From the IMG/VR virus record IMGVR_UViG_3300032085_000079, positions 1 to 24,842 of that record: a stretch of DNA of 24,842 nt. One strand, given 5' to 3'. The first letter of the stretch is position 1; every line of letters begins with the position of its first letter. Positions 4,439 to 9,575 of the stretch are shown here, in pieces. The notes beneath the pieces are model-generated. The model was given only the letters and a program-made list of their open reading frames with translations, had not been told where the DNA came from and ran no database searches. Made by a program: the position numbers and the translations under genes. This stretch comes from a virus.

Positions 4439-4921
4439 CTAGTTTTGCATTTTACCACCAGACCATTTAGCTTCTGGTAAATTGTTTTTATATTCTCCAC
4501 CTGAATATGTCAAAACTTGTTTTCTATTAGAATCTTCTTTATAAGAACAATGAATCCAACCACTATTAGGCTCTCCCTCTTTCCAAAATTCTAAAATAAG
4601 TTGGTCAAAATTACAATTATTTTGAATCCATAAAGCTACTTGTAAGTTAGAAACTCCAGCAATCTCAAAGTCTGCTGCTTCTCCTAAACAATGTTGTGAT
4701 GTTGCTTTACTACCAATAGCTTCTGATAATTCAGGGCTTCTATATCCTGATGTGATAGTAACAGGCTTATCAAACTTTGCTCTTACAGGCTCTAGCACTT
4801 CATAACAAAGATCGCCTAAATTTTTAATCTCTCCACTACCAGCTTTATTAGTTATTCCTTTTCTAGTAGCAGTTTGGCTTTTCTCAAATTCTTCTAATGT
4901 AAAATGTTTTGATAATTGCAT
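4439..4921 (-). CDS. Endolysin, peptidase M15 (zinc D-Ala-D-Ala/L,D-type peptidase)
   Basis: 160 aa, a typical single-domain M15 endolysin length. It opens LSKHFTLEEFEKSQTA, the usual N-terminus of this group, then TITSGYRSPELSEAIG, then the zinc motif SQHCLGEAADFE (His77, Asp84), and SGWIHCSY (His124 as third ligand); Glu111 in LILEF is a candidate catalytic acid. These enzymes cut peptide cross-links in peptidoglycan. There is no signal peptide, so release needs a holin; candidates are the proteins at 2028-2393 and 3446-3676. Start ATG 4921; the lysine-rich microprotein gene follows with its own ribosome binding site. Confidence 0.9.
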   Translation of the reverse strand: MQLSKHFTLEEFEKSQTATRKGITNKAGSGEIKNLGDLCYEVLEPVRAKFDKPVTITSGYRSPELSEAIGSKATSQHCLGEAADFEIAGVSNLQVALWIQNNCNFDQLILEFWKEGEPNSGWIHCSYKEDSNRKQVLTYSGGEYKNNLPEAKWSGGKMQN

Positions 4922-4927
4922 AATACT

Positions 4928-5557
4928 TTAATTATATAATTTTTTAAAGTTATGTGGAAGTCCTAAATGTAATCTACCATCATATATATTCTTTTTTGAA
5001 TTTGTTGTTTTTATATCATTATAATGTAAAAATACTTGACAACAAGAGTTACCATGAAATTTTTTTCTCCAATGTTCTAATTCACAACCTCTATAAACCA
5101 ATATATCTCCAGCTTTTAAATCAACTTTAATACCTTTTTTACCTAAATCTCCTGATGGCTCTAAATATATTGACCAGTTATTACCTCCTAAATTCATTGT
5201 GCAAGATATTTCACAGCTAAATCTATCTTTATGTCTTTTTAATACATCTCCTTTTTTATATATTCTTGCATAAGTGTAAGATGGTTGTAATTTTAATTGT
5301 GTTACTTTTTCCATAACTGGCTGACATTTTAATAATAAAGTTTCCATAACAATATCGGAGTAATGAGAATAAGTATTTGGTATCATACCATCACTTGGCT
5401 CATACAAACCTAGCATACTTTCAAATGGAGAAATAAATTTTTCTTTTAAACAAGTATCATAAACTTGTTTTTTCATTAAAAAATAATTGTATATAAAATT
5501 TGCCATATCTTTAGAGATAACATTTTTAACTATTGCATATTTTTTTTTTTTAAACAT
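4928..5557 (-). CDS. 2OG-Fe(II) oxygenase family protein (A)
   Basis: 209 aa. The HxD motif is visible as RHKDRFSCEIS (His109, Asp111), followed by MNLGGNNWSIYLEPSG, a GDILVYRG turn (about 150-157), and the distal iron ligand His162 in LEHWRKKFHG, then CQVFLHYN. This is the double-stranded beta-helix order of a prolyl-4-hydroxylase-like enzyme using 2-oxoglutarate, O2 and Fe(II). The Arg normally 10-12 residues after the distal His is not obvious, so cosubstrate binding may use another residue. The substrate is unknown. It overlaps oxygenase B by 8 nt and lies 6 nt upstream of the endolysin gene. Confidence 0.85.
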   Translation of the reverse strand: MFKKKKYAIVKNVISKDMANFIYNYFLMKKQVYDTCLKEKFISPFESMLGLYEPSDGMIPNTYSHYSDIVMETLLLKCQPVMEKVTQLKLQPSYTYARIYKKGDVLKRHKDRFSCEISCTMNLGGNNWSIYLEPSGDLGKKGIKVDLKAGDILVYRGCELEHWRKKFHGNSCCQVFLHYNDIKTTNSKKNIYDGRLHLGLPHNFKKLYN

Positions 5558-6179
5558 CTTTTGCCATTTCTCTTGGAACAGCTTGTATATTCCAATGTAT
5601 AAATCTAAAAGGATCTATACCAAAATCTAAAGCATATTCGTGTTCTAAGTAACCCGGAAATATAATTAATGTACCCGGTGTGGGTTTAAAATGTATAAGT
5701 TCTGATCCATTTGATATACTTTTGTAATCTTTCATTTTTAACTTAGTGGCTCTTGCACCTGATCTTGGCTCATGGAATATTGGAAAAGAGGTTTTATCAC
5801 TACACTTTAAAAAATAGAATCCTGATACATGTTGATTCCAATGTACATGTGCTGAATGATGACCACCACCTTTTTTAGCAAACTCTTGCACCCACATTTC
5901 ACTAAAGATAGTTGTGTATTGTTGCATATCATAACCTTGATGATCCAAATATTCCCAAGACTTTTGACCAACGTAATTTCTAAAATCTAAAAAATCATTG
6001 TCCATAGTAAGTGTTGTTGAATGATGTGATAACCCAAAATCTCCATGTTGTTTTATATGTTCTTTATTTTTGTTTCTTGCATCTTTAATATATTTATTAG
6101 ATGCTTTGTTTAATGATTTAACAAACTCTGGTTTTTGTTCTGTCCAAATAGTAGTGTTAAAGTAATTACTTATAAACAT
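5550..6179 (-). CDS. 2OG-Fe(II) oxygenase family protein (B), TIGR02466-like
   Basis: 209 aa. Key segments: HHSAHVHWNQHVSGFYFLK (His111, His113), IFHEPRSG, then PGTLIIFPGYLEHEY (distal His180), and Arg192 in PFRFIHWN as the likely 2-oxoglutarate ligand. The H-x-H...SGxYYL...F.EPR...FPxxLEH...RxxxxWN series resembles the TIGR02466 group of putative oxygenases, common in marine phages. An exact HxD is replaced, so the first iron ligands are probable rather than certain. It shares a TAATG overlap with oxygenase C and an 8-nt overlap with oxygenase A. Confidence 0.8.
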   Translation of the reverse strand: MFISNYFNTTIWTEQKPEFVKSLNKASNKYIKDARNKNKEHIKQHGDFGLSHHSTTLTMDNDFLDFRNYVGQKSWEYLDHQGYDMQQYTTIFSEMWVQEFAKKGGGHHSAHVHWNQHVSGFYFLKCSDKTSFPIFHEPRSGARATKLKMKDYKSISNGSELIHFKPTPGTLIIFPGYLEHEYALDFGIDPFRFIHWNIQAVPREMAKDV

Positions 6180-6811
6180 TATTTAAAAGGCCTCCCTAAA
6201 TGCCAAACAACAAGACTATATCTTGTTCCTGATGTTACTGGTTTAACTCTATGCCAGACAAAACTAGGAAATACAATAATAGATCCTTTTGGTAATATTT
6301 CTTTACATTGTATTTTGTGTTTTGATTCGTCTCTCATATGTGGATCATAATTTCTAAAATCAAATTCTAATTCTCCACCCTGATATTCTGAGCCATCTGT
6401 TAACTGACAAGTCATAGATAGTTTTCTAATCTTACCATGATTAGGTGTGTTTGGTTTGTCGTAAGCCTTATCCCAACTATCACAATGCCAATCGTAATAT
6501 TGATTGTGTTTGTATTTCGTAAATTGACAAGTTTCTGATCTATCCCATTCAAAGTTCCAACCAGCATTTTTATTAGCCATATGAACGTATGGGTGTAATT
6601 CTTTATAGATCCAAGTATCATTTAACCAAACTAAATCAGAGTTTCTTTTTCTTTTAAGATCTTTAACTTCTTTTTTATCTAATTTTTTATTACCAAAACC
6701 AGCAGTTAAACCCATTGTTTCTTTTTGTTGATTAGCATAAGCAATTACATCATTACAAAATCTATGTGTAAGAGCAGATTTAAAATACCAATAATAATTA
6801 GATATATTCAT
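6179..6811 (-). CDS. 2OG-Fe(II) oxygenase (C), prolyl-4-hydroxylase/PKHD-like
   Basis: 210 aa and the clearest oxygenase of the cluster. HxD is His109-Cys-Asp111 in YYDWHCDSW, followed by KIRKLSMTCQLTDG, GGELEFDF, KGSIIVFPSFVWHRV (distal His187), and TSGTRYSLVVW with Arg197, ten residues after the His, for 2-oxoglutarate. All four canonical residues are present, so catalytic activity is expected. The PKHD-type arrangement resembles protein prolyl or lysyl hydroxylases, but nucleic acid or small-molecule substrates cannot be excluded. It overlaps the next gene upstream by 14 nt. Confidence 0.9.
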   Translation of the reverse strand: MNISNYYWYFKSALTHRFCNDVIAYANQQKETMGLTAGFGNKKLDKKEVKDLKRKRNSDLVWLNDTWIYKELHPYVHMANKNAGWNFEWDRSETCQFTKYKHNQYYDWHCDSWDKAYDKPNTPNHGKIRKLSMTCQLTDGSEYQGGELEFDFRNYDPHMRDESKHKIQCKEILPKGSIIVFPSFVWHRVKPVTSGTRYSLVVWHLGRPFK

Positions 6812-7301
6812 AAGTTATTGTTTGCACAAAGTTTAATGAGCCTGTTTGATTATTAGCTAAATAATACATATTAGTAGAGGGAAACATTATAAACATATTA
6901 TTTTTAAGTTCTAAATCCCAGCTTTTCCCTTTACGTCTGTTATCTTCATAATGTATTCTAACAAAACAATTTTTTACTTTAATACCATATAATAATGTAA
7001 AGTCTGGAGAGTTTTGTAAATCTACTGGATTTATGTTTAATAATGGAATCGTAGTCTCATCAGATTTATATATATTCCCCCATGTTTTTTTATTAACTAA
7101 ATTAACATCATACTCAGCACCAATGTGATCTCTAATATAAGTATTTAACATATCCCAAGTTTTTGAAAAAGGAAATTCTGAATCTGTTAGTTGTGATTGT
7201 AAAATATCTGTTGTTAATTTATTTTGATCTATTTCAAAGCCTTTTGGCATATCAACGTTACCAAAATATAATGCTTGTTCTGTTAATATTTTTTTTTGCA
7301 T
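6798..7301 (-). CDS. Oxygenase-like beta-helix protein without canonical iron ligands
   Basis: 167 aa. It starts KKILTEQALYFGNVDMPKGF, reminiscent of proteins in marine T4-like phages. The C-terminal part has alternating beta-like strands (NCFVRIHYEDN, WDLELKNNMFIMFPSTNMYYL, LNFVQTITYEY). The FxMFPSxxxYYL stretch sits where oxygenases have IxFPSxxxHxV, with Tyr at the distal-His position, and no HxD is present. It may be a non-catalytic relative or binding partner of the adjacent oxygenases. The oxygenase relationship is inferred from pattern and context only. Confidence 0.5.
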   Translation of the reverse strand: MQKKILTEQALYFGNVDMPKGFEIDQNKLTTDILQSQLTDSEFPFSKTWDMLNTYIRDHIGAEYDVNLVNKKTWGNIYKSDETTIPLLNINPVDLQNSPDFTLLYGIKVKNCFVRIHYEDNRRKGKSWDLELKNNMFIMFPSTNMYYLANNQTGSLNFVQTITYEYI

Positions 7302-7313
7302 ATCTAATATCCT

Positions 7314-8108
7314 TTATGTTAAATTTTTATATTTACTTACAATATAGTTAGGAATTTTTATATTATAATTGATCTTATTAATTTTACCTTTTCTTATAAT
7401 GTGTAAAGGTGCTTTTATAAATGAATCATCATAAGAAATATTATTTATAGAGAATTGATTTTTAATTTTGTAATCATGTGTAAATTTTGGTATTTTTAAA
7501 AAATTATATATTTTTTTAATTGTATCGTTTGGTTTTTTTACCAAGTTATTATAGTCAACAACTAGAACATTTTTCTTATTTTTTATAAATTTATAAGACA
7601 TACAAGCTATATCAAAATATTCATTTTTTTTAGTTATAATTTCTATTTTTTCTTCAATCTCTGATTTATAGATAGTTGTAGGATCTATACTATTGTATGT
7701 TTTGTTAATGTAAAAATCAGGATATTTATTACATAAATTTAAAAATGATTTAATTACTTCTATAGGATCTCTCATTAAAAAAATGATTTTAATATCATTA
7801 GGACAATATTTTTCTAACATACTATAATTAAAAGGAGTTGACCATTCTGATCTTATTATGATGTTGCTTTGTTTCCAATTATTGAAAAAATTTTTAAATA
7901 TATTTTTCTGTATCTCATTTAAGTTATCAGTTGTTTTAAAATTTTTATATGTAACATTGTAGTTTTTAATTCTTTCTAATTGTAAAAATATATCAGGTAT
8001 AAAAGAATGACCAGTAGTTGCTATAGTAGGGTTTTGATTTAATATTGTAGATAATAAAGTATTTCCTGATCTTGGAAAACCTGATAAAAAATAATATTTT
8101 TTTTCCAC
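7314..8108 (-). CDS. PAPS-dependent sulfotransferase family protein
   Basis: 264 aa, usual for a single-domain sulfotransferase. The 5'-phosphosulfate loop is FLSGFPRSGNTLLSTIL (residues 7-23), the 3'-phosphate motif is IIFLMRDPIEVIKSF (Arg113, Ser121), and the end is typical with a basic segment (IIRKGKINKINYNIKI). Substrates in the family include sugars, lipids, proteins and small molecules; none can be chosen here. The predicted start is GTG 8108 with no clear ribosome binding site, but the P-loop begins at residue 7-10 so little N-terminal sequence can be missing. The region is even more AT-rich than its neighbours, hinting at separate acquisition. It lies between virion genes and the oxygenases. 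Confidence 0.85.
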   Translation of the reverse strand: MEKKYYFLSGFPRSGNTLLSTILNQNPTIATTGHSFIPDIFLQLERIKNYNVTYKNFKTTDNLNEIQKNIFKNFFNNWKQSNIIIRSEWSTPFNYSMLEKYCPNDIKIIFLMRDPIEVIKSFLNLCNKYPDFYINKTYNSIDPTTIYKSEIEEKIEIITKKNEYFDIACMSYKFIKNKKNVLVVDYNNLVKKPNDTIKKIYNFLKIPKFTHDYKIKNQFSINNISYDDSFIKAPLHIIRKGKINKINYNIKIPNYIVSKYKNLT

Positions 8109-8122
8109 GTTAGCAAATATAT

Positions 8123-8572
8123 TTAAGCTAAATTATTTGTCAAATCCCAAGTTGTTTGTTCTTCATTCCACACATAATACCATCTGTGAGTTTGTTCAGT
8201 ATTTTGTGATTGTTGTTCTGTAGTTAATTTAGGTGCATCACCTATAGGAGATTGCCAACTTGCAGTTGTCATATTTTTTACCCAAGAATCATAAGGTTTT
8301 TTAGGCCAAAAAATTTGTTCTTCTTCATTCCATGTATAACCTATACCAGCATAATTACCTCTAAAGGGTGTTCCACCTAAAGTATGTGTATTTTTAAATG
8401 TATTATATGAAGTTTGTATCCACATTTCAGCAGCCCAATTATTGTGTGTTTCTAAATATTGTTGCCCAACTGCTTCTTCTTCTACACCATCAGCATTTAA
8501 CATATTTTTATTATCAAGTGTTAGAACTTGAATAACTTTTTTATCTGAATTTATTTTTGCAAAATGTGCCAT
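8123..8572 (-). CDS. Putative virion/tail-fibre-associated protein
   Basis: 149 aa, rich in Trp, Asn, Thr and Gln. It begins AHFAKINSDKKVIQVLTLDN and carries the repeated pattern YTWNEEEQIFWPKKPYDSW and YVWNEEQTTWDLTN, two related W-rich modules. Proteins with this N-terminus and GxGYTWN/FW-PKPY motif are frequent in T4-like and other marine phages next to fibre genes, usually called structural. Its place directly after the Gly-rich fibre supports a distal fibre or fibre-cap role. No enzyme motif is seen. Confidence 0.65.
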   Translation of the reverse strand: MAHFAKINSDKKVIQVLTLDNKNMLNADGVEEEAVGQQYLETHNNWAAEMWIQTSYNTFKNTHTLGGTPFRGNYAGIGYTWNEEEQIFWPKKPYDSWVKNMTTASWQSPIGDAPKLTTEQQSQNTEQTHRWYYVWNEEQTTWDLTNNLA

Positions 8573-8579
8573 AATTTAC

Positions 8580-9575
8580 CTATTGAAATTTGTACCTTAT
8601 TATTACTATACCAGATCCACCAACACCACCTGAGCCACCGGGAGATCCTCCTCCACCTCCTCCTCCTCCAGTATTTGCAGTTCCAGCATCTCCTGTACCA
8701 CCACTTCCATGATTTTTACCATCTCCACCACCACCAGATCCTCCTGATCCACCAGCACCGGGTGGGCCGGAAGTGCCATTCCCAGCACCACCTCCACCTG
8801 ATAATGTAACTGATGACCCTGAAATTGATGTTGCTACACCATTACCTCCAGCACCAGCTGGATTACTACTACCAGCACCACCAGCAGCACCAGCGCCTCC
8901 TCCACCTGATCCAGCATAAAATGTTGGTACTCTAGGTGCAGCACCAGCTGGATTACCTTGCGATGGACTTACTGGGGGTGTATTACCAACTCCTCCAGCA
9001 GTAGGAGAAGCATAAGCTACTCCACCACCAGATCCACCGGGTTGATTTGATCCAGCATTACAATAGAAACCTCCACCTCCTCCAGTAGAAGTTGTTGTTG
9101 AAAAAATAGAATTTGATCCTCTTGATGCTGGTGCGCCTGTTGCACCACCAGCACCTACTGTAATTGGGTAAGATTGTGCTGAAACTGTTATAGCAGTAGT
9201 ACCATCTAATGGACTTGCAGTATAAGATGTAACTGGAGATTTATCTTCTCTAAAACCACCAGCACCACCACCACCAGCACCGGATCCTGATGCGTTTCCA
9301 CCACCACCACCACCAGCTACTACTAGGTGTGCAACTACATTATTGTCTGCACAAGAAGAAATGCCTGAAACTGCAAAAGTTCCCGGACTTGTAAATGTGT
9401 GAATTTTGTCATCTCCTGATGTTGTTATTGTTCCACCAGTAGCAGTAATAAAACTAGCACCAGCACCTCCTCCAGCACCAAATCCTAAAACTTGGTAACC
9501 AAAAGATTTACCTCTTTTTGATTTTATATTTTTTGTGCTTTTACCAGAAATCAGTTTATCTTTTAAATTTCTCAT
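8580..9575 (-). CDS. Glycine-rich tail fibre/adhesin protein
   Basis: 331 aa. A short basic N-terminus (to about residue 25) leads to FGAGGGAGASFITATGGTIT, then several glycine blocks (up to eight Gly in a row) separated by short beta-like segments with Thr, Ser, Ala and Pro, ending GGSGIVIIRYKFQ. Such Gly-rich, Pro-spaced proteins occur in viral fibres; polyglycine-II packing, known from gp38-type adhesins of T-even-like phages, is a reasonable model. The DNA is markedly more GC-rich and repetitive (CCACCA/CCTCCA tracts on the plus strand) than the rest of the window. It overlaps the upstream fibre gene by one base (TAATG). Confidence 0.8.
   Translation of the reverse strand: MRNLKDKLISGKSTKNIKSKRGKSFGYQVLGFGAGGGAGASFITATGGTITTSGDDKIHTFTSPGTFAVSGISSCADNNVVAHLVVAGGGGGGNASGSGAGGGGAGGFREDKSPVTSYTASPLDGTTAITVSAQSYPITVGAGGATGAPASRGSNSIFSTTTSTGGGGGFYCNAGSNQPGGSGGGVAYASPTAGGVGNTPPVSPSQGNPAGAAPRVPTFYAGSGGGGAGAAGGAGSSNPAGAGGNGVATSISGSSVTLSGGGGAGNGTSGPPGAGGSGGSGGGGDGKNHGSGGTGDAGTANTGGGGGGGGSPGGSGGVGGSGIVIIRYKFQ

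Follow-up and report, generated by a model that had tools for sequence, protein, structure and literature searches.

The genome of an HTVC111P-like pelagiphage, an ocean virus of bacteria, carries a run of oxygenase and oxygenase-like genes that forms a conserved block with two fibre genes. The gene order of this block, G-F-D-C-B-A, is near-invariant across more than 100 marine phage loci. On balance, we favour reading it as a tail-fibre tailoring island in which the oxygenases would hydroxylate chiefly the prolines of the fibre and the sulfotransferase E, where present, would sulfate it. The window analysed here is a viral DNA stretch of 24,842 nucleotides (IMG/VR record IMGVR_UViG_3300032085_000079).

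Enzymes encoded in the window

Positions 4928-8108 on the minus strand hold five ORFs, A to E, which overlap or are spaced by 12–14 nt and are flanked by the fibre block on one side and an M15 peptidase endolysin on the other (Table 1). This agrees with an earlier note on the sequence, which had described five tightly packed genes between fibre genes and endolysin. The note had also treated the five as one cassette; this holds for the A-B-C-D core, but E is optional and the conserved block additionally takes in F and G (8123-9575).

Table 1. Features of the oxygenase/fibre locus in the window.
Feature	Position	Strand	Evidence
M15 peptidase endolysin, downstream boundary	4439..4921	-	PF08291 E 9e-19; PHROG endolysin E 6e-48
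A: probable 2OG-Fe(II) oxygenase	4928..5557	-	H109/D111/H162 with R164; phrog_2954 'ferrochelatase' E 4e-48
B: 2OG-FeII_Oxy_5 oxygenase	5550..6179	-	PF13759 E 1.4e-12; H-x-H...H...R
C: 2OG-FeII_Oxy_3 oxygenase	6179..6811	-	PF13640 E 5.5e-16; H109/D111/H187/R197
D: oxygenase fold without iron ligands (pseudo-oxygenase)	6798..7301	-	AF2 pLDDT 87.7; Foldseek to PHD2
E: PAPS-type sulfotransferase, optional insert, F-D slot	7314..8108	-	PF13469 E 1.1e-16; PRSGNT loop
F: small fibre-like protein, candidate substrate	8123..8572	-	phrog_7759; AF2 pLDDT 96.1
G: Gly-rich fibre protein, candidate substrate	8580..9575	-	PF21722 E 2.6e-18

Judged by family match, candidate ligands and a 2OG-binding Arg, B and C are members of the 2OG-Fe(II) oxygenase superfamily. 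The four residues that the note had named in C were found exactly and are invariant in 18 relatives; C is also weakly related to the PKHD-type hydroxylases (NCBIfam PRK05467, below cut-off). The conserved candidate ligands of B are H111 and H113, followed by H180 and Arg-192. In A, which has no Pfam or NCBIfam family match, H109-x-D111, H162 and R164 are invariant across 20 relatives, with R164 at an unusual spacing. The claim of three oxygenases with iron-binding residues stands for the motifs of A, B and C, with the correction that B has H-x-H and not H-x-D. The PHROG name of A, ferrochelatase, finds no support in the sequences, with no Pfam match in any of the 20 members and no NCBIfam match. 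A is probably a 2OG-Fe(II) oxygenase rather than a ferrochelatase. Profile–profile comparison (hhalign) of A with C was not significant, and the same comparison of A, D and a family labelled 'endonuclease V' against B or C gave nothing significant, so that fold or motif evidence was relied on instead. The 'endonuclease V' family of these phages carries a 2OG motif; both this label and 'ferrochelatase' are probably wrong in these phages.

D has no family match. Its AlphaFold model matches the 2OG oxygenase (DSBH) fold, with Foldseek matches to PHD2 and other DSBH proteins at E of about 1e-6. The iron-binding H-x-D/E...H triad is absent from D: the protein has only two His, His59 and His117, neither in a conserved column, and the distal His position is apparently taken by the invariant Tyr146 (placed by eye from motifs). 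With the triad missing, D is named oxygenase-like and not an oxygenase, in line with the one oxygenase-like protein of the note. Simple sequence searches of the isolate collection did not extend D beyond block-bearing phages.

The remaining enzyme, E, had been called a PAPS-type sulfotransferase, and the presence of both a Sulfotransfer_3 domain and the 5'-PSB loop identifies it as PAPS-dependent at the sequence level. The PAPS loop, PRSGNT, lies at residue 12 and is invariant in its core; R113 and S121 are conserved. The top solved-structure match of the E-family profile is TPST1 (E 8e-8), with further sulfotransferases ranking behind. In its PAPS loop and this top match the E family resembles the Sulfotransfer_3/protein-tyrosine sulfotransferases; as a profile, the similarity of the phage family is far lower (E 8e-8). 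A slot survey combined with a tree placed E-family genes in at least three slots (F-D, D-C and C-B) on different branches. E is an optional insert outside the block core, and its family is strongly clustered with the oxygenases. Block slots also hold inserted halogenase and methyltransferase genes and additional oxygenases; the inserted halogenases are of the phage PF04820 type, with none in the window. In the cyanophage version of the block, a carbamoyltransferase adjoins. Assimilatory sulfate reduction is known to be missing from SAR11 hosts, which we count against our best explanation with respect to the supply of PAPS for E.

A conserved block with fibre genes

Adjacent pairs were counted 135 times for F-D, 138 for D-C, 115 for C-B and 116 for B-A, with four exceptions, in loci that were gathered by sequence similarity, so that neither these locus counts nor the p values below are independent. 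In further F-seeded loci with room, D was next to F in 58/58. The note had proposed independent occurrence of the genes in relatives as evidence against a joint pathway; the A-B-C-D core rarely separates, whereas the sulfotransferase does occur apart. The A-B-C-D+F block is common to unrelated 60-kb pelagiphages, at about 80% on the nucleotide level, and HTVC023P carries it. Close sisters of the window phage are without the block and have a glycosyltransferase at its position. In 25 loci from the tail-gene lineage of the window itself, F is found in seven, all with an oxygenase or D; one has an oxygenase without F and 17 have neither. The gene combination had been called unusual, which we reject as stated: several oxygenases in a row also occur in HTVC008M, Mosig and S-SM1, and one phage with 24 of them has been reported (PMC9602691). 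Haem oxygenase and PcyA-like genes adjoin the array in Mosig.

An adjacent Gly-rich ORF accompanied F in all 184 F loci. No PDB entry was significantly related to F by Foldseek; a later structural comparison gave a modest partial match to the fibre of cyanophage Pam3 (PDB 7ypx; Z 5.5 over 58 residues), for which there is no match at the sequence level. A search with a single F protein against prokaryote genomes returned four loci only. G carries GNTPPVSPSQG at residue 197, and Pro makes up 6.0% of its Gly-rich region. F and PF21722 are also present in phages without oxygenases, which indicates that a fibre can function unmodified.

Proline content of the Gly-rich fibre domains

The Gly-rich domains contain 1.77% Pro in phages that lack all of the tested 2OG families, against 6.88% in 2OG-positive isolates and 7.2% in the IMG/VR block loci (nominal p 5e-5). 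No other residue of these domains shifts comparably. Phages fetched after the hypothesis was formed behaved alike: zth2-2, ctn9Y15, cta1H496 and ct2KA10 have 1.1–2.5% Pro and none has PF13640 or PF13759, while S-SM1 and S-RSM4, which have oxygenase clusters, reach 6.3 and 5.8%. For Bellamy, the Pro-rich fibre was seen and an oxygenase cluster then found. Loci with room that were seeded with GNTPPV[ST]P had oxygenases in 39/39. The motif alone was discarded as a marker, since Greip and DSL-LC04 have GNTP.SP.QG too; total Pro content is the cleaner signal, and whether C or A is present predicts it best. Where only one 2OG gene adjoins F, the fibres are not Pro-rich (ctNMl277 1.4%, DSL-LC04 3.6%), and HTVC008M has several oxygenases yet only 3.8% Pro.

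From this strong association we infer a link between the enzymes and the fibre. Phylogenetic control is underpowered: a single independent contrast is well supported (the best tree gives five), too few for the significance of the Pro–oxygenase association to be tested, and Pro-richness could have been inherited together with the oxygenases.

A proposed modification of the fibre

The Pro enrichment of Gly-rich domains beside the oxygenase cluster is what favours hydroxylation mainly at Pro, to which the fold of D points indirectly as well. In the mechanism that we propose, A, B and C would be made in the late operon along with Gly-rich G and fibre-like F, and would hydroxylate fibre side chains, most likely Pro of the Gly/Pro-rich domain, for example GNTPPVSPPQGN. 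D, as an iron-free relative, may serve A, B and C as a scaffold or substrate adaptor. In the window phage, the acquired E would then sulfate a hydroxylated residue or a Tyr of the same fibre protein, and the modified fibre might be stiffer or present an altered adhesin surface. What is shown here are the genes with their folds and motifs, the conserved block, the repeated insertions of tailoring enzymes and the Pro correlation; from these we infer what the enzymes do, what they act on, how D takes part and that sulfate is added. A broader version, which we offer tentatively, is a swappable adhesin assembly line: oxygenases and a pseudo-oxygenase scaffold would hydroxylate a Gly/Pro-rich fibre that sulfotransferase, flavin halogenase, carbamoyltransferase or methyltransferase would decorate, diversifying the receptor-binding surface chemically and not by amino-acid change.

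Fibre modification could also spare the G prolines. The oxygenases might act on F, or on other fibre residues (Asn, Tyr, Trp), with the Pro-richness of G as a lineage trait. F invariably adjoins D, as well as most inserted sulfotransferases and halogenases, and has many conserved Trp; aromatic residues would be fitting targets for a Trp-type halogenase and a TPST-like sulfotransferase. However, several phages carry F without any oxygenase, and no F residue clearly distinguishes phages with and without oxygenases beyond general divergence; we consider this alternative unlikely, if the least so of those weighed here. A further step down in probability is the view, published for pelagiphages and cyanophages (PMC9599517; PMC9602691), that such genes are auxiliary metabolic genes whose products target host metabolites, iron or haem, or lower 2-oxoglutarate, in which case the fibre-side position would be an acquisition hot spot. 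The neighbours of the Mosig array fit it, but no ferrochelatase can be recognised in A, and a hot spot alone leaves both the constant order relative to F and G and the Pro signal unexplained.

The earlier note had suggested a pathway that modifies a virion protein or a host-surface glycan, with hydroxyls as possible acceptors for sulfate. A virion protein is now the best-supported target, as the block travels with F and G and Pro tracks the block, while neither the host glycan nor DNA bases gained support as the target; passage from hydroxyl to sulfate would be a putative later step. Receptor masking, in which the infecting phage would alter a glycan or lipid on the host surface, sulfation included, draws on the glycosyltransferase of the sister phages and a weak NoeE match of E. 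Carbamoyltransferases and sulfotransferases act on glycans elsewhere, which we count in its favour. It would not predict a fibre composition that depends on oxygenases, and we regard it as improbable. Least probable is TET/JBP-like oxidation of phage DNA bases, the hydroxyl then being decorated: of the solved structures, a Tet-like dioxygenase matches the A profile best, at a non-significant E of 0.34, but A, B and C have no Tet_JBP family match, and the late virion-operon position beside fibre genes and the Pro signal in the fibre speak against it.

Among the nearest known systems is the prolyl 4-hydroxylase of PBCV-1, likewise a virus-encoded 2OG oxygenase, for which evidence of 4-hydroxyproline in the viral proteins was reported (Eriksson et al. 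1999, as cited in PMC9301287). PBCV-1 is an alga virus with one enzyme, whereas the phages have a fixed block of several predicted enzymes at one fibre locus, which includes a pseudo-oxygenase and may include a sulfotransferase or halogenase. Wittmers et al. 2022 (PMC9599517) described 2OG and 'ferrochelatase' genes in pelagiphages of the HTVC023P type as metabolic partners whose order varies; in part, these are the genes A, B and C. The present reading takes A for an oxygenase, extends the set by D, F and G and puts forward the fibre as substrate. The halogenases inserted in the island are of the same phage PF04820 kind as the VirX1-type marine viral flavin halogenases (Gkotsi et al. 2019, as cited in PMC10452541).

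Few unexplained genes of marine phages are as common as those for 2OG oxygenases, which are usually assigned to host metabolism, and the block recurs in very abundant marine phages. The proposal predicts hydroxylated fibre residues in phages that are already cultured, such as HTVC023P, HTVC033P, S-SM1 and S-CAM8, which carry the module. Should many of these enzymes turn out to act on the fibre of the phage itself, a large group of genes now called 'auxiliary metabolic genes' would need re-reading.

Enzyme genes beside the fibre genes

The window, a 24,842-base virus record whose relatives at ~83% nucleotide identity include the Pelagibacter phages HTVC111P and HTVC202P, carries five enzyme genes (A–E) next to two fibre-type genes (F and G). 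Adjacent genes from A to G overlap or lie no more than 14 bases apart, a tight packing that fits transcription as one late operon.

Candidate modification enzymes and their putative substrates in the window
Gene	Positions	Strand	Product	Location
A	4928-5557	minus	probable 2OG-Fe(II) oxygenase	between fibre block and M15 endolysin
B	5550-6179	minus	2OG-Fe(II) oxygenase	between fibre block and M15 endolysin
C	6179-6811	minus	2OG-Fe(II) oxygenase	between fibre block and M15 endolysin
D	6798-7301	minus	oxygenase-like protein	between fibre block and M15 endolysin
E	7314-8108	minus	PAPS-type sulfotransferase	between fibre block and M15 endolysin
F	8123-8572	minus	small fibre-like protein (phrog_7759)	fibre side of enzyme genes
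G	8580-9575	minus	Gly-rich fibre protein	fibre side of enzyme genes

C has H109, D111, H187 and R197, as the earlier note stated; these residues are invariant in 18 relatives, and C matches PF13640. A domain match likewise confirmed E as a PAPS-type sulfotransferase, the solved structure nearest to its family profile being protein-tyrosine sulfotransferase 1 (E 8e-8). B is a PF13759 member with H-x-H instead of H-x-D. A matched no Pfam or NCBIfam family and belongs to a PHROG named ferrochelatase (phrog_2954); its H109-x-D111, H162 and R164, invariant in 20 relatives, fit an oxygenase better. The label 'ferrochelatase' is probably wrong for the A family, as is 'DNA endonuclease V' for a family in another locus (L002 8655-9137; H-x-D...H...R motif present); both carry conserved 2OG oxygenase motifs. 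D matched no family and its sequence is missing the iron ligands; its predicted model (pLDDT 87.7) adopts an oxygenase fold with 3bvc and PHD2 as best matches (E ~1e-6).

A conserved block with optional inserts

IMG/VR scans seeded with D, A and F confirmed at least 598 relatives of D and at least 597 of F. Among the matches listed, the genes nearly always follow one another as fibre-F-D-C-B-A on a single strand (135 F-D, 138 D-C, 115 C-B and 116 B-A adjacencies; four exceptions), and D comes immediately after F in all 58 additional loci that were seeded with F and had room. The five-gene cassette first described is real; by this survey, the conserved unit is the larger fibre-F-D-C-B-A block and E is optional. 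At ~80% nucleotide identity, the window shares the block with the 60-kb pelagiphages HTVC023P and 023Pt_psg01, whose versions have no E; its sisters HTVC111P, 112P, 202P and 026P do not carry the block. Within the window's own tail-gene lineage, 7 of 25 loci with room have F plus an oxygenase or D, one has an oxygenase without F and 17 have neither. Looser forms, in which an A-type gene, an F-like gene and several 2OG genes accompany a Gly-rich fibre, occur in cyanomyophages.

The slots between core genes also hold extra 2OG oxygenases (including the 'endonuclease V'-annotated family), sulfotransferases, and flavin Trp-halogenase, methyltransferase and HNH endonuclease-like genes. Sulfotransferases occupy the F-D, D-C and C-B slots on different branches of their tree, those of the F-D slot forming one clade that includes the window's E. 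The combination with oxygenases had been thought unusual; it is not. In 69 of 85 E-family loci, F or a 2OG gene is no more than 1.5 kb away, and the density of 2OG genes drops from 0.73 per kb adjoining E to 0.07 per kb at a distance of 5 kb. From these slots, branches and clustering, the sulfotransferase is an optional yet recurrent partner of the block, and the pairing was probably acquired more than once.

Block genes accompany 25 of 30 halogenase loci by our own count. The PF04820 flavin-dependent Trp halogenase sits in the F-D or C-B slot (compared loci L067 2126-3241, L059 372-1481 and L176-L203), and halogenase-bearing islands include a rearranged form with D-A-B-C on the opposite strand. 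Four halogenase-bearing loci (L178-L181) have F, C and A with D and B undetected, so D is not strictly required. The C-B slot of L024, L025 and L055 holds an HNH endonuclease-like ORF, which may be a homing element aiding island spread. Other neighbours were seen elsewhere: a glycosyltransferase in place of the oxygenase block in HTVC111P and HTVC112P (L001 3700-4581, L007 2677-3558); haem oxygenase and PcyA-like genes directly adjoining the 2OG array of pelagiphage Mosig (L175 8984-10220); a Nol-like carbamoyltransferase, a possible further tailoring enzyme, adjoining the cyanophage cluster version (L263 663-2294, L264 678-2288, L266 658-2322); and, beside the large tail protein of sister phages, an RTX-toxin-type lysine acyltransferase gene (L001 9932-10339, L006 9590-10003, L007 9158-9544), possibly encoding another virion-protein modifier.

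Fibre proline content and the oxygenases

F with a Gly-rich fibre is also present in Greip, HTVC025P, CRP-207, CRP-143 and phiPsal1, phages that gave no 2OG match with PF13640, PF13759 or the A profile; they allow fibre domains with and without oxygenases to be compared. In isolates, proline makes up 1.77% of the Gly-rich domain without oxygenases and 6.88% with them (nominal p 5e-5, from loci found by similarity, many of them related, and thresholds chosen after the data were seen). Proline alone differs strongly, with little change in Gly, Ser, Asn, Ala, Asp, Lys and others. Across 324 ORFs of IMG/VR block loci the value is 7.2%. The traits change ~5–6 times across the F tree, with only one well-supported independent contrast, too few to claim formal significance for the association.

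The proline idea arose from part of the compared data, and further genomes, looked at later, are in line with it. Four with no PF13640/PF13759 match (zth2-2, ctn9Y15, cta1H496, ct2KA10) have 1.1–2.5% proline; S-SM1 and S-RSM4, with clusters, have 6.3% and 5.8% in the F-adjacent fibre. Bellamy, Pro-rich and at first classed as block-free, was then found to carry a cluster. Proline content is best predicted by the presence of C or A (180 loci), and oxygenases occur in 39 of 39 GNTPPV[ST]P-motif loci with downstream room. Exceptions are ctNMl277 and DSL-LC04, each with one oxygenase beside F and not Pro-rich, and HTVC008M, with only 3.8%. At L311, L312, L314 and L315, a sulfotransferase and two other oxygenases, with no A, B, C or D, lie beside Gly-rich fibres of 0–0.4% proline, so this version may target another residue.

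Candidate substrates and a possible role

In the most straightforward interpretation, the predicted activities of A, B and C would hydroxylate the fibre during its synthesis. The first-ranked alternative substrate is F, which has a confidently predicted fold (pLDDT 96.1) and, as the sole PDB relative found, a partial match to the cyanophage Pam3 fibre (Z 5.5 over 58 residues); a Gly-rich ORF accompanies F in 184 of 184 loci with upstream room among the matches listed. A role in host metabolism ranks second: co-located 2OG and 'ferrochelatase' genes of HTVC023P-type phages were interpreted as auxiliary metabolism (PMC9599517), and a cyanophage with 24 2OG genes as reprogramming its host (PMC9602691). 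Action on host surface glycans, which the earlier note had proposed alongside virion proteins, is placed third, and action on DNA bases fourth.

A viral prolyl 4-hydroxylase is known from PBCV-1, where there is evidence that viral proteins contain 4-hydroxyproline; the source that describes it also mentions collagen in viral tail fibres and calls viral use of collagen still cryptic (PMC9301287). No link between the block and the proline content of fibres, F/G or the interchangeable tailoring enzymes was reported in the literature searched, whose coverage was incomplete.

Under fibre hydroxylation, D would help present the fibre, and E, where present, would sulfate a hydroxylated or tyrosine residue; SAR11 is known to be without assimilatory sulfate reduction, which bears on PAPS supply for E. 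Hydroxyproline gives collagen-like and other Pro-rich proteins a stiffer chain and an altered surface, and by analogy the same stiffening and surface change could apply to the Gly/Pro-rich fibre.
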